64,000 nucleotides of DNA from Eubacteriales bacterium (GTDB lineage: Bacteria > Bacillota > Clostridia > Lachnospirales > Lachnospiraceae). The notes under the pieces were generated by a model. It saw only the letters and a list, made by a program, of their open reading frames with translations. It made no database searches and had not been told where the DNA came from. The DNA is taken from positions 1 through 64,000 of the forward strand of contig JAUNPU010000013.1 in NCBI GenBank assembly GCA_030536555.1, given 5' to 3'. The first letter of the stretch is position 1. Each line of letters opens with the position of its first letter. The position numbers and the translations under genes are program-made. Below are positions 7,061-41,487 of this stretch, piece after piece.

Positions 7061-7109
7061 TCTGATATCGCGAACATTGCAGCCAGCCTCTGCGGGCTTA
7101 CCACACAAT

Positions 7110-7223
7110 TTCTTCTCTCATCCAGACTATACTGTCGGTTCTGGAATCTCACCAGATCAGCCACATGCACTGTGGGTCGCGGACTGTACCGCCGGTGGGG
7201 AATCACGCCCCGCCCCGAAGAAC
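7110..7223 (-). promoter_or_regulatory. FMN riboswitch (RFN element)
   Basis: Read on the minus strand, the conserved RFN blocks appear in order: TTCGGGGCGGGG, CACCGGCGGTA, AGTCCGCGAC, GGTGAGATTCC, ACCGACAGTATAGTCTGGATG and AGAGAAG. These form the six-helix FMN aptamer. FMN binding should favour the terminator at 7030-7060 and stop ribU transcription. Confidence 0.95.
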
Positions 7224-7313
7224 TTATATGTACTTTATACCACGATTTGAGAACATTTACAACCACTTTACAAGGATTTCCGATATTTAAATCTAGAATA
7301 GCTTTTTTATCCG

Positions 7314-17932: not shown

Positions 17933-18188
17933 TTTGGACAATAAATAGCTATTATCAAATAAATTATCCAAAATTGTCCCCGACACAGCGATTATCAGTT
18001 GACATAAAGCTGGTTTTGGACAATTATACTGGAAATCCATCTGTTATTATCCAAAATTTCAAGATTTTTGGATAATTTTCAGGATTTTCAGTTGGAATTA
18101 TCCAAAGCATGCTTTATGTAAACCTGCGGTCCACATTTCGCAGATATGATTGGATATTTTTTTGAATATTCGCCTATAATTGTCCAAA
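17933..18188. repeat. Phased inverted-pair array, copy 1
   Basis: Non-coding. Eight 9-bp sites in four inverted pairs TTTGGAYAA-N22/23-TTRTCCAAA: 17933/17964, 18015/18047, 18067/18098 and 18149/18180 (the left site of the last pair is degenerate, ATTGGATAT). Gaps between pairs are 42, 11 and 42 bases, so the layout is mirror-symmetric about 18061. Site centres are 31, 51, 32, 20, 31, 51 and 31 bases apart, close to whole helical turns. TTGACATAAAGC at ~17998 and GCTTTATGTAAA at ~18111 are also inverted copies. No open frame crosses the array. A second copy is at 38710-38975. Confidence 0.85.
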
Positions 18189-37053: not shown

Positions 37054-38223
37054 TTACAGTGCCTCAACTGCGTCCTTCAGCTGCTTTAATGCACGCTCCA
37101 GCGTCGCCCGCGGGCAGGCTGCATTCAGACGCATGAATCCGGACAGGCTGCGTCCGAAGGTATAGCCCTCGTTCAGACCAATCTTTGCCTTCGTAATCAT
37201 GAAGTCGCGAAGCTCCTCATTGTTCATTCCCAGTTCCCGGCAGTCCAGCCATACCAGATAAGTCGCATCCGGCACGTTCGGCTTGATCTGCGGAATATTT
37301 GCCTCACAATACTCCTTGATGAAGTCAAAGTTCCCGGAAATGTACTCCAGAAGCTGCTCCAGCCACTCCTCGCCCTCGCGGTATGCTGCCTCCATAGCCA
37401 CGGAGCTGAATGCGTTGTTGCGGTGAATATCCATGTTGCCCCAGAACTTATCAAACGCCTGCTTCATCTCCAGGTTCGGGAAGATGGTGGTGGACGCCTG
37501 CAGACCAGCCAGATTGAAGGTCTTGGTCACAGATACGCAGGTGATGATCTTCTCCGCAATCTCTTTGGAGAGCGTTGCCGTCGGCGTATGCTTCTTACCA
37601 TGGAAAATCAGGTCAGAATGAATCTCATCCGAGATCAGCAGTACATCATTTGCAATACAGATTTCCGCCATTTTCCGAAGCTCTTCCGGCTTCCAGACAA
37701 TTCCCAGCGGGTTGTGCGGGTTGCACAGCAGGAAGATCTTGCAGTCCTTCACCTTGCTCTCGAAATCTGCGAAATCGATTGTCCAGGTGCCGTCCTTCTC
37801 CACCAGCTGATTCTCCACAACCTGACGGTCCCATGCTTCCGTGATGTCATAGAACTCAGAATATACCGGAGTCTGGATCATAACCTTGTCACCCTCGTCG
37901 GTGAAAATCTTGATCAGTGCGGACATTGCCGGTACAACCCCCAGGCTCCAGCTCATCAGCGCCGCATCCGTCTCCCAGTTGTTGCGCTTCAGCTCCCACT
38001 CCTTCACCGCTTCAAAGTAGCTGTCCGGTCTGGAAGTGTAACCCCAGATACCCTCCTCTGCCTTTTTCACACAGGCATCGATAATCGGCTGTGCTGTCCG
38101 GAAGTCCATATCCGCAACCCAGAGCGGAATCACATCTGCCGTTCCGAATTTCTTCACCCTCTCGTCATACTTGGATGACCGGTTGCCGCTGCGGTCAATG
38201 ACTTCGTCAAAATTGTACTTCAT
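37054..38223 (-). CDS. patB: PatB/MalY-type C-S lyase (aminotransferase fold)
   Basis: 389 residues from ATG 38223; ATG 38235 has no room for a ribosome site. Fold-type I PLP enzyme with NPHNPLG (LLCNPHNPLGIVW), ISDEIHSDLIFHG and the PLP Lys in SVTKTFNLAG. Family members cleave cystathionine, cysteine or other C-S bonds to thiols, pyruvate and ammonia. First gene of the sigma-54 operon. Confidence 0.92.
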   Translation of the reverse strand: MKYNFDEVIDRSGNRSSKYDERVKKFGTADVIPLWVADMDFRTAQPIIDACVKKAEEGIWGYTSRPDSYFEAVKEWELKRNNWETDAALMSWSLGVVPAMSALIKIFTDEGDKVMIQTPVYSEFYDITEAWDRQVVENQLVEKDGTWTIDFADFESKVKDCKIFLLCNPHNPLGIVWKPEELRKMAEICIANDVLLISDEIHSDLIFHGKKHTPTATLSKEIAEKIITCVSVTKTFNLAGLQASTTIFPNLEMKQAFDKFWGNMDIHRNNAFSSVAMEAAYREGEEWLEQLLEYISGNFDFIKEYCEANIPQIKPNVPDATYLVWLDCRELGMNNEELRDFMITKAKIGLNEGYTFGRSLSGFMRLNAACPRATLERALKQLKDAVEAL

Positions 38224-38270
38224 TTGATGTACCATCCTTTCTTTGCTGGCTTGCTGTTTTTGTTGCCTTT

Positions 38271-38345: not shown

Positions 38346-38371
38346 TATCTATCGCTTATGTCTTTATATAC

Positions 38372-38388
38372 AGCAAGTGCCATGCCAA
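38372..38388 (-). promoter_or_regulatory. Sigma-54 (-24/-12) promoter for the patB operon
   Basis: Minus strand reads TTGGCATGGCACTTGCT: TGGCAT (-24), five bases, TTGCT (-12), with correct spacing. Transcription would start near 38360 and give a leader of about 140 bases. rpoN and a sigma-54 activator flank the operon, which supports the call. Confidence 0.85.
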
Positions 38389-38709: not shown

Positions 38710-38975
38710 TTTGGACAATTTTAGGCGATATTTCAAAAAATTATCCAATTTCACCTGGTCAACCGACCTAATCCCGCATTTTATTCCATCTTTTGGATAA
38801 TTAAGAAGCAAATCAGCCTTTCCATGTCCAAAATCTCGGGAATTTTGGACATGAGACAGCTATAAAGCCAAATAATTATCCAAAATCCCCTGTAAAATGC
38901 TTTTTAAGGCGTATTTATGGCAAAAAAGCGCTGCCTTTGGACAATTTTTCTCGAAAATCAAAGTAATTATCCAAA
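38710..38975. repeat. Phased inverted-pair array, copy 2
   Basis: Non-coding, between patB leader region and activator gene. Four inverted pairs TTTGGAYAA-N22/23-TTRTCCAAA at 38710/38741, 38792/38824, 38844/38876 and 38936/38967 (two sites vary at the ends). Gaps are 42, 11 and 51 bases, against 42, 11 and 42 in copy 1. Site centres are 31, 51, 32, 20, 32, 60 and 31 bases apart. At the centre CATGTCCAAAAT and ATTTTGGACATG form a perfect 12-bp hairpin whose bases differ from copy 1 in a matched way. Flanks carry TTAACATA (left) and TATGTTAA (right). Outside the repeats the two copies share little sequence. Confidence 0.88.
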
Positions 38976-39090: not shown

Positions 39091-41349
39091 CTATTTTGAT
39101 ATATGCTCCTCCCAGCAAGCTCTTCCTTCCGGCGTGATCCGGCTCCCGCCTCTGCCTCGACCGGTCACAACAAAACCCTGGTCCGCCATCTCTTTCAGGC
39201 AGTCCCGAATCTGCTTCTGGGATATGGGGAGCTTTTGTTCTCTTGCCGTCTGATGCAGCTTCTCGCGTCCGGTAAAGCTTCCCCTCTCTGATGCCAGATA
39301 AAGCTGCTCCATAGTAAACCAATAGGGATGCACCGATGATTTACCTCCATATGATCCAGCATACGAGCCAGTCCCACGCAAGCCGACATCACACAAGCTG
39401 CTATCACGCAAGCCACCTCCGCGCAAGTCCTCTCCAGACAAGCCACCTCCACGCAAGTCACCCGCACGCAAATCACTCTCACCCAAGTCTTTTCCACGCA
39501 AGCCCTCTCCAGACAGGTCCTCTCCACGCTGCCCCTCTCCAGACAGCCCATCTCCACCTGCCTTCCCCGGTCTCCGCATCCCCATGCCAGCTCTCGCCCG
39601 CATCATGGTCGGCGGCAGGTCTGCCAGTTCCACCACCTGCTTGCCGGTGTAATTAAAATATTCCGCCGCATTGTGCAGCTCCCGGATATTGCCGGGCCAG
39701 GAATAGCGCAGAAGAAAGTCCTTCGTCTCCTCCGAGATCTCAAAGCTTCCGTTCAGCTCCTGCTTAAATCGCTCCATCAGCAGAAAGATATCCTGCCCCC
39801 GGTCTCTCAGGGGCGGAAGCACCACCGTCAGGGCGTTCAGCCGGTAGTACAGATCCCGGCGGAAGCTTCCGTCCTCCACCTTTTCCTCCAGAGATTCGTT
39901 GGTCGCCGCCACCACCCGCACGTCCACCCGGACAATGCTGCTGCCGCCGACCCGCATGACCTCGCCCTCCTGCAGCACGCGGAGAAGCTTCACCTGCATG
40001 GACAGGCTCATGCCCTCCACCTCGTCCAGAAACAGGGTTCCCTTATGAGCAAATTCAAAAAGTCCGGGCCGTCCGCCCTTCTTTGCGCCAGTAAACGCCC
40101 CCTCCTCATAGCCGAACAGCTCACTCTCCAGCAGATTTTCCGGCATTGCCGCCACATTGATTGCAATAAACGGACCATTCGCCCGCCGGGATGCCTGATG
40201 AACCGCATGAGCCATCAGCTCCTTGCCTGTTCCCGTCTCGCCGACGATCAGAACCGGACTTTCCGTAGCTGCCATCCGCGCCAGAATTTCCTTGGTGTGA
40301 CAAATGGCTGCGGACTCACCGACCACATCGTCAAAGGTATACCTGGCATAATGCCCCTTCTGCAGAAGCTGGCTGCGCAGCTCATTCTGCTTCGTCTCCA
40401 TCTCATTGAACCGCTGCAGCTTGGCAAAAGCGCCGATGCACTCCTGCTTGCGCATAACCGGGCTGACAGAAATGGAAATATTGCTCCCAAACAGCTTGGT
40501 CACCCGTGCCTGCACCTCTTCCTTCTCCTTCAACGCCCTGGAAAATGGAATATACGGAAATACCTCCTCGCTTCGCTTTCCCATCACAAGCCCCTCGGAT
40601 ACCTTTGCAATCTGGCACGCCTTTTTATTGCAGGCAAACACCTCACCCTTCTCATTGACGCCGATCAGTCCCTCATCCAGAATCTCCATCAGGATGTGGA
40701 ACTGGCTTTCCAGCTTCATGGACCGGGCAAACATCTGATCAAAACTGTAGTTATTGGTGGCAATGGACTTAAAATAATCCTGAAATTTCTCTGTCTCCAG
40801 CAGCTCCTCCAGCCCAAGCCGCAATGCAATCTCAATCATCATTCCCGATGTGCAGGAGCGATGTCCCGTGTCAATAACCGTCTTCACCGAATCCGGCACA
40901 TACCGCATTTCCCCCGGTGTCACAGCAAAGTCCACCGGCTCCGTCAGCTGCGCACCCGGAAAATAAGGGATGAATTTCAAATGATTCACCCCCAGCGCCG
41001 CCAGCTGCGCAATCGCCTCCCGCGCCATAGCCTGCGTTACATTGACGAACAGCACCGCCGTTCCTTTTGGAATTTCCCAAAGCTGCTCCAGGGTACTCCA
41101 GCGAAATGACACCTCAATCGACATGGTCTCGCTGTCGATGGGAACGTGGCGCGCCACCTCCTCCGCAGAACCGTATGCATCTGTGGAGATGACAAACAGG
41201 TCCGCCCGCGGCAGCTTTCCCGTGGCAGACCCATCACGGACGCTGTAGCCCACCACCTCCGCATAATCACCAAACAGGCTCTCCACTTCATTTTTGTAGG
41301 CTGCCCCCGCCATTGGATCCAAAGCCACCACTGCAATCGTTTTTCTCAT
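39091..41349 (-). CDS. Sigma-54-dependent transcriptional activator
   Basis: 752 residues from ATG 41349. Sensor region ~1-200 (starts [14 protein letters not shown]), PAS domain ~215-310 ([22 protein letters not shown]), AAA+ domain with Walker A GETGTGKE (370-377), GAFTGA loop at 417-422 and Walker B FLDEVEGM, then a linker and a winged-helix-like DNA-binding region (~675-750) rather than the usual Fis helix pair. The linker at 600-659 is a 12-unit pentapeptide repeat (xDLxG). It faces the patB operon and is its likely activator, perhaps sensing cysteine or a related metabolite. Confidence 0.93.
39373..39552. repeat. 15-bp tandem repeat coding xDLxG pentapeptides
   Basis: Twelve 15-base units in the activator linker; a frequent form is ACGCAAGCCACCTCC. 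Read in frame they give [25 protein letters not shown] and similar, close to A(D/N)LxG pentapeptide repeats. Confidence 0.85.
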
Positions 41350-41487
41350 ACGCTGTTCTTCTCCCGTAACTGTCCTGTCGCCCTGCACACCTGCTGCACC
41401 AACTGCAGAATTGCTGCAAGGCACACCCTCTGCTTATCTAGGAGTATATCCGCCATATCTGCAAATGTCAATCGCCGACAATATACC

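Follow-up and report, generated by a model that had tools for sequence, protein, structure and literature searches.

Helically phased arrays of inverted half-sites in Lachnospiraceae genomes and a candidate nuclease-like partner protein

Within the 64,000-nucleotide stretch of DNA analysed here (the window), array copy 2 lies between a sigma-54-type operon (aminotransferase, SDF symporter, RidA and two SDH_alpha genes) and the gene of a sigma-54 activator, and outside any gene (Table 1). This setting, described in the first-pass annotation, was confirmed by gene annotation, with gene calls taken from a simple home-made caller run on draft assemblies. The 9-mer sites that it described were all found as well, set in four inverted pairs separated by 42, 11 and 51 bases. 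The half-site consensus is TTTGGAYAAT(T), 10–11 bp long and alternately inverted, with eight half-sites per array. On an eight-half-site grid limited to the permitted spacings, 5 of 80 positions mismatch in copy 2 and 2 of 80 in array copy 1, compared with a mean of 35.6 for 60 Markov-resampled 64-kb windows, the ten best of which had 31–35. In copy 2, CATG replaces AATT in both central half-sites together (TTTTGGACATG / CATGTCCAAAA; 38823–38853), and the same is seen at loci L094, L103 and L125, as if the two central sites of a CATG subfamily changed jointly.

Table 1. Features of the window
Feature	Position	Strand	Remarks
FMN riboswitch	7106–7226	-	Rfam RF00050, E 2.9e-26
Array copy 1	17933–18188	.	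eight half-sites; gaps 42, 11, 42
Copy 1 half-site starts	17933, 17963, 18015, 18046, 18067, 18097, 18149, 18179
Aminotransferase gene	37054–38235	-	first gene of sigma-54-type operon; start toward array copy 2
Sigma-54-like promoter	~38371–38388	-	read by eye
Array copy 2	38710–38975	.	eight half-sites, four inverted pairs; gaps 42, 11, 51
Copy 2 half-site 1	38710–38719	+	TTTGGACAAT
Copy 2 half-site 2	38740–38749	-	ATTATCCAAT as read on the + strand
Copy 2 half-site 3	38792–38801	+	TTTGGATAAT
Copy 2 half-site 4	38823–38832	-	CATGTCCAAA; central CATG variant
Copy 2 dyad centre	38833–38843	.	ATCTCGGGAAT
Copy 2 half-site 5	38844–38853	+	TTTGGACATG; central CATG variant
Copy 2 half-site 6	38875–38884	-	ATTATCCAAA
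Copy 2 half-site 7	38936–38945	+	TTTGGACAAT
Copy 2 half-site 8	38966–38975	-	ATTATCCAAA
Sigma-54 activator gene	39091–41424	-	3′ end toward array copy 2; outside element

The two copies had been thought to have identical spacing. As pair 4 of copy 1 starts at 18149, its final gap is 42 bases compared with 51 in copy 2, so the two spacing plans are one helical turn apart. The further claim that they share little sequence between the sites holds in that the spacers have diverged, but the copies have a common ancestry, with 41% identity between their equal-length spacers. A simple recent duplication, or the lack of any third copy with the same spacing, had been named beforehand as refuting the idea of selection on geometry; neither was borne out, and the genome holds about 92 scattered arrays, 250–275 bp long. 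Most arrays also have a conserved GTTKACATAAAGC motif adjoining the inner pair, in the right gap once the arrays are oriented (e.g. 17975–18014, other strand), and similar motifs occur outside some arrays; this is perhaps the site of a second protein.

The draft assembly of this genome (3.59 Mb, 59 contigs) contains 225 exact inverted pairs, compared with 0 for the reversed control, and 78 exact array cores, and a sequence-only profile search of both strands scored at least 150 places. Parsing of the loci gave 101 candidate arrays, 92 with the exact 21-bp centre and 82 with all four pairs, and the remaining nine, which do not have this centre, may be degenerate or false. Outside the arrays the 11-mer occurs about once in 536 kb of own-genome DNA, counted in loci selected for carrying arrays. 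In the parsed arrays the central spacing is 21 bp, the within-pair spacing is 30 or 31 bp, and the spacing from inner to outer pair is 51/52 in 117 cases and 61/62 in 64, with single cases of 50 and 72 and no others, though parsing allowed 40–84. The outer gaps are strongly phased (Rayleigh R = 0.96 over 120 gaps), and since the spacings come in whole helical turns, all sites lie on one helical face. One array (L072:4083-4736, a locus that is partly N) is lengthened by tandem outer units of 92–93 bp, or nine turns, with the phase kept. Elsewhere an identical sequence ends two contigs inside one array (L121:1-60 and the end of L142), a pattern that an insertion sequence landing in the array could leave.

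Conservation is concentrated in the sites, with mean between-array identity of 94% for the sites, 53% for the spacers and 28% for the flanks, the last of which are unrelated and indicate dispersal to unrelated places. Among 18 non-overlapping closest pairs of arrays, 6 of 864 site-core positions differ (0.7%) compared with 644 of 2279 spacer positions (28%), so that even between the closest copies the cores are kept ~40-fold better; detection does require recognisable sites, meaning that fully decayed copies escape, although parsing accepted as many as 8 mismatches in the core and few intermediates turned up. From this difference in divergence, individual copies look to be under constraint rather than decaying as dead repeats. 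The proposal that selection acts on geometry is supported, for the sites together with a geometry defined modulo one helical turn.

Inverted sites could also act in single-stranded form, as a structured RNA or a REPIN-like hairpin or cruciform. Both window arrays do fold better than shuffled sequences as single strands (z −5.0 and −9.4), but real arrays (−76.8 kcal/mol) fold no better than chimeras (−75.9 kcal/mol), so the inverted sites by themselves account for the fold stability. Within an array, the left and right spacers match each other no better than spacers taken from separate arrays do (z 0.25, −1.35 and 0.06), and C..A mismatches are common (64) while T..A is rare (9), the reverse of what a hairpin predicts. 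Array orientation is independent of transcription, and a search of Rfam returned nothing above threshold in the array. We strongly disfavour this explanation and regard it as very improbable.

The boundaries of the element bear on another alternative, a MITE-like non-autonomous transposon whose long terminal inverted repeats would be the sites of a DDE or other transposase, with any neighbouring nuclease-like gene incidental. Alignment information beyond the outermost half-sites is only ~0.1 bit per position, and we therefore place the element ends at the outer half-sites. Such exact ends, the dyad symmetry, the dispersal of copies to unrelated flanks and a lineage-specific amplification would all suit a transposon of this kind. 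However, none of 54 arrays has a target-site duplication, no copy enclosing a transposase gene between the same ends, as expected of an autonomous parent, was found among the parsed loci, and cores conserved 40-fold over spacers are not expected of decaying copies. This origin appears improbable to us, if less so than a hairpin. Searches for carriage on mobile DNA gave no full core in IMG/VR and no arrays in plasmids; the single-pair matches in IMG/VR and in genome contigs look like chance. Motif strings looked for in literature text gave nothing relevant.

The genomic context of the arrays speaks both for and against a host role. Nearly all arrays (63/64) are clear of called genes, in tandem, convergent and divergent settings that resemble those of other intergenic regions, and their orientation is independent of that of the genes. 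The flanking genes of these 64 arrays share no function, with 114 neighbours matching 180 Pfam families and none of the families in more than three. The orthologous locus in congeners does not have the array, so a special tie to sigma-54 was not borne out. At the copy 2 locus, at least ten congeners retain the activator–aminotransferase pair; in G309, the nearest by locus protein (88% identical), the region between the two genes is 219 bp compared with ~859 bp here, and the array is absent from it while the promoter region still aligns. A strong promoter lies between array and gene start on 40 of 55 start-facing sides, at variable distance, and the related genes and defined promoter distance of a transcription-factor regulon were not found. 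A role of the arrays as terminators was considered by comparing gene ends: terminator-like signals occur at 13 of the 58 that face an array, compared with 37 of 104 controls (p 0.11). Over 20 contigs the placement of the arrays is Poisson, and even spacing along the chromosome was rejected on this ground.

If the arrays were host architectural or regulatory elements, an unrelated oligomeric wrapper, e.g. of the Lrp/AsnC or RemA type, would engage the ~250 bp and the nuclease-like gene described below would be incidental. The strong per-copy constraint on the sites and the phasing by whole turns would be expected of such arrays, as would their position upstream of promoters and not between promoter and gene. 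Their neighbours of no common function, variable promoter distance, independence of gene orientation and Poisson placement argue against it, as do RemA footprints, reported as ~7-bp protections every 10 bp (PMC8481266) and unlike the array spacings. Overall we consider a host wrapper unlikely, yet it is the alternative to which we give most weight, and the distribution among relatives bears on it further.

Many copies occur in just one or two of 24 congeners, the named one being G312 (Lachnospiraceae bacterium STD2_177), and this patchy spread again counts against a host role. G312 has 28 exact pairs TTTTGGTAR...YTACCAAAA, compared with 0 in the genome of the window, and 67 profile matches. 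Its sister motif, TTTTGGTARYT, sits on the same grid, and in grid register the half-sites of the two genomes differ at two fixed positions. Besides the plan found in the window, G312 carries a second one (40 and 30 for 50 and 20), again in whole turns. Two-pair elements at low copy are present in G045, which belongs to another genus, and profiles found single arrays upstream of dapA in G241 (TTTTGGACAAT), hrcA in G023 (TTTTGGGTAAC) and rpsJ in G288 (TTTTGGGCA); these low-copy arrays in other genera would suit a host role. A degenerate-pattern search found arrays in G280 and G221 and more in G023, with ~0.05 per genome for the reversed control. The arrays are thus present in particular lineages, their letters shifting between species on a fixed grid; their absence from other genomes is provisional, as searches there were partial.

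Some array positions coincide between genomes. G280 and the genome of the window each have an array beside the same orthologous operon, and G312 shares with the genome of the window an array next to a MATE gene; with about one coincidence of this sort expected by chance, such shared positions are suggestive only. Arrays with different letters also lie downstream of an iscS-iscU-mnmA operon in two genera (L130:3889-4164 and L394:6577-6806), by orthology or coincidence. Matches to CCAAAA-N8-TTTTGG in G302, G303 and G310 belong to an unrelated AATTCCCAAAAAGTACACTTTTTGGGAATT inverted-repeat family (L105-L111 and the same three genomes), whose pairs are ~137 bp apart, several of them at contig ends. 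A likeness to the DnaA box (TTRTCCAAA vs TTATCCACA) was discounted, since TTTTGGTARYT, the sister motif, no longer shows it.

A protein whose presence follows that of the array had been suggested as a check, and the search yielded a candidate nuclease-like family beside arrays. ORFs near the arrays of ten genomes were clustered (~1000 scanned) and the family was chosen afterwards. It is the one recurrent family, an unclassified protein of 260–283 aa encoded directly beside arrays in G045, G221, G312 and the genome of the window, where its gene lies on another contig (C26:37348-38199, outside the window) and an intact array begins 17 nt past the stop codon. The two paralogs in G312 are 53% identical; that at L433 is flanked by A-type arrays on both sides and that at L190 is beside a T-type array. 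Under random gene placement the chance of adjacency is ~6% in the genome of the window and <1% in G045 and G221, for array neighbourhoods only and a family picked from many; because the search was confined to these neighbourhoods, adjacency is biased upward and copies away from arrays are uncounted. Around the arrays of G280, G223, G023, G288 and G241 no homolog was found. An XRE-type regulator near two arrays was weighed as a partner and dropped.

The homologs share 40–49% identity with the protein of this genome, the N-terminal domain being more variable (26–40%) than the C-terminal one (49–69%), and the T-type paralog has the most divergent N-terminus among them. Pfam and NCBIfam gave no match. 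The C-terminal 120 residues resemble the C-termini of plasmid helicase-type (SF1-type) 'AAA family ATPase' proteins, and the C-terminal domain also resembles a PHROG endonuclease. With a protein model of moderate confidence (mean pLDDT 71), predicted-fold matches in a viral library were to Vsr-like, TnsA-like and homing endonucleases (E 1e-4), while PDB matches were weak (best E 0.05) and included the R2 endonuclease and XisH. Residues E181, D211 and E226-H227 are invariant, but a lysine in the place typical of PD-(D/E)XK is not apparent. Judging from these models, the C-terminal domain may be nuclease-like, of a PD-(D/E)XK/Vsr-like kind.

Taken together, the array beside a nuclease-like gene here and in three relatives suggests an undescribed site-and-protein system. 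On balance, we lean toward array and neighbouring protein being a co-evolving pair, with the array a double-stranded docking site for one complex. The wider proposal, to which we give even weight for and against, is a two-part Lachnospiraceae system of a nuclease-fold protein and dispersed phased arrays, selfish or domesticated, in which specificity co-evolves and geometry stays fixed. The eight asymmetric ~11-bp half-sites of an array alternate in orientation about a dyad at distances of 2, 3, 5 or 6 turns, all on one face as expected of one large cooperative complex. The cognate protein would be the unclassified one encoded on C26; a multimer of it would bind along one face of ~250 bp, recognising the half-sites through the variable N-terminal domain and carrying the putative nuclease in the C-terminal one. 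This nuclease-like domain might help arrays to reach new intergenic places, without target duplications, or might instead act on DNA held in the complex; no copying intermediate of arrays was found. The arrays would be retained as binding sites, for host benefit or by the pair itself. If this is true, a bacterial dispersed element has its geometry, and not its sequence, as heritable feature, the ~92 arrays reveal the letters and helical spacings that a multi-site DNA–protein complex requires, and species with shifted half-site letters are a natural record of protein–DNA co-evolution.

With BIME, BOX and RUP the arrays share many intergenic copies and modular inverted units, and none of these small dispersed repeats is known to combine whole-turn spacing of eight sites with freely diverging spacers. 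The candidate C-terminal domain is similar in fold, and partly in motif, to homing and Vsr-like (EDxHD) endonucleases, TnsA-type endonucleases and the R2 endonuclease domain, but the N-terminal domain differs from theirs, and the array copies are many where homing involves a single site. Lrp/AsnC octamers and RemA rings (PMC8481266) wrap DNA by several contacts on one face, as proposed here, whereas the site type, spacing and patchy distribution of the arrays differ. REPIN/RAYT (PMC3116915) has more in common with them: dispersed intergenic elements of inverted sites with conserved ends, variable middles and species-specific motifs, and a single-copy gene for a DNA-processing enzyme bordered by the matching motifs, each repeat type having one enzyme. 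The candidate gene is likewise flanked by its own repeat type, with two paralogs for two array types in G312. REPINs, however, form hairpins that compensatory changes maintain, and a HuH tyrosine transposase (Y1_Tnp) moves them, whereas the arrays are eight asymmetric, phased, double-strand half-sites with no pairing constraint, their variable bases being anti-correlated with pairing and their spacers without covariation. The array-adjoining protein, with nuclease-like fold matches and no Pfam match, is not a HuH enzyme by these comparisons but a PD-(D/E)XK/Vsr-like candidate. As the arrays lack the hairpin and the protein beside them does not match the HuH enzyme, the two features that define REPIN/RAYT, the arrays are not members of it. 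Our best reading of the sequences is a nuclease-linked array system that would resemble REPIN/RAYT in logic and, if true, would be its non-HuH counterpart and provide a nuclease-like family that is so far unclassified with a function.
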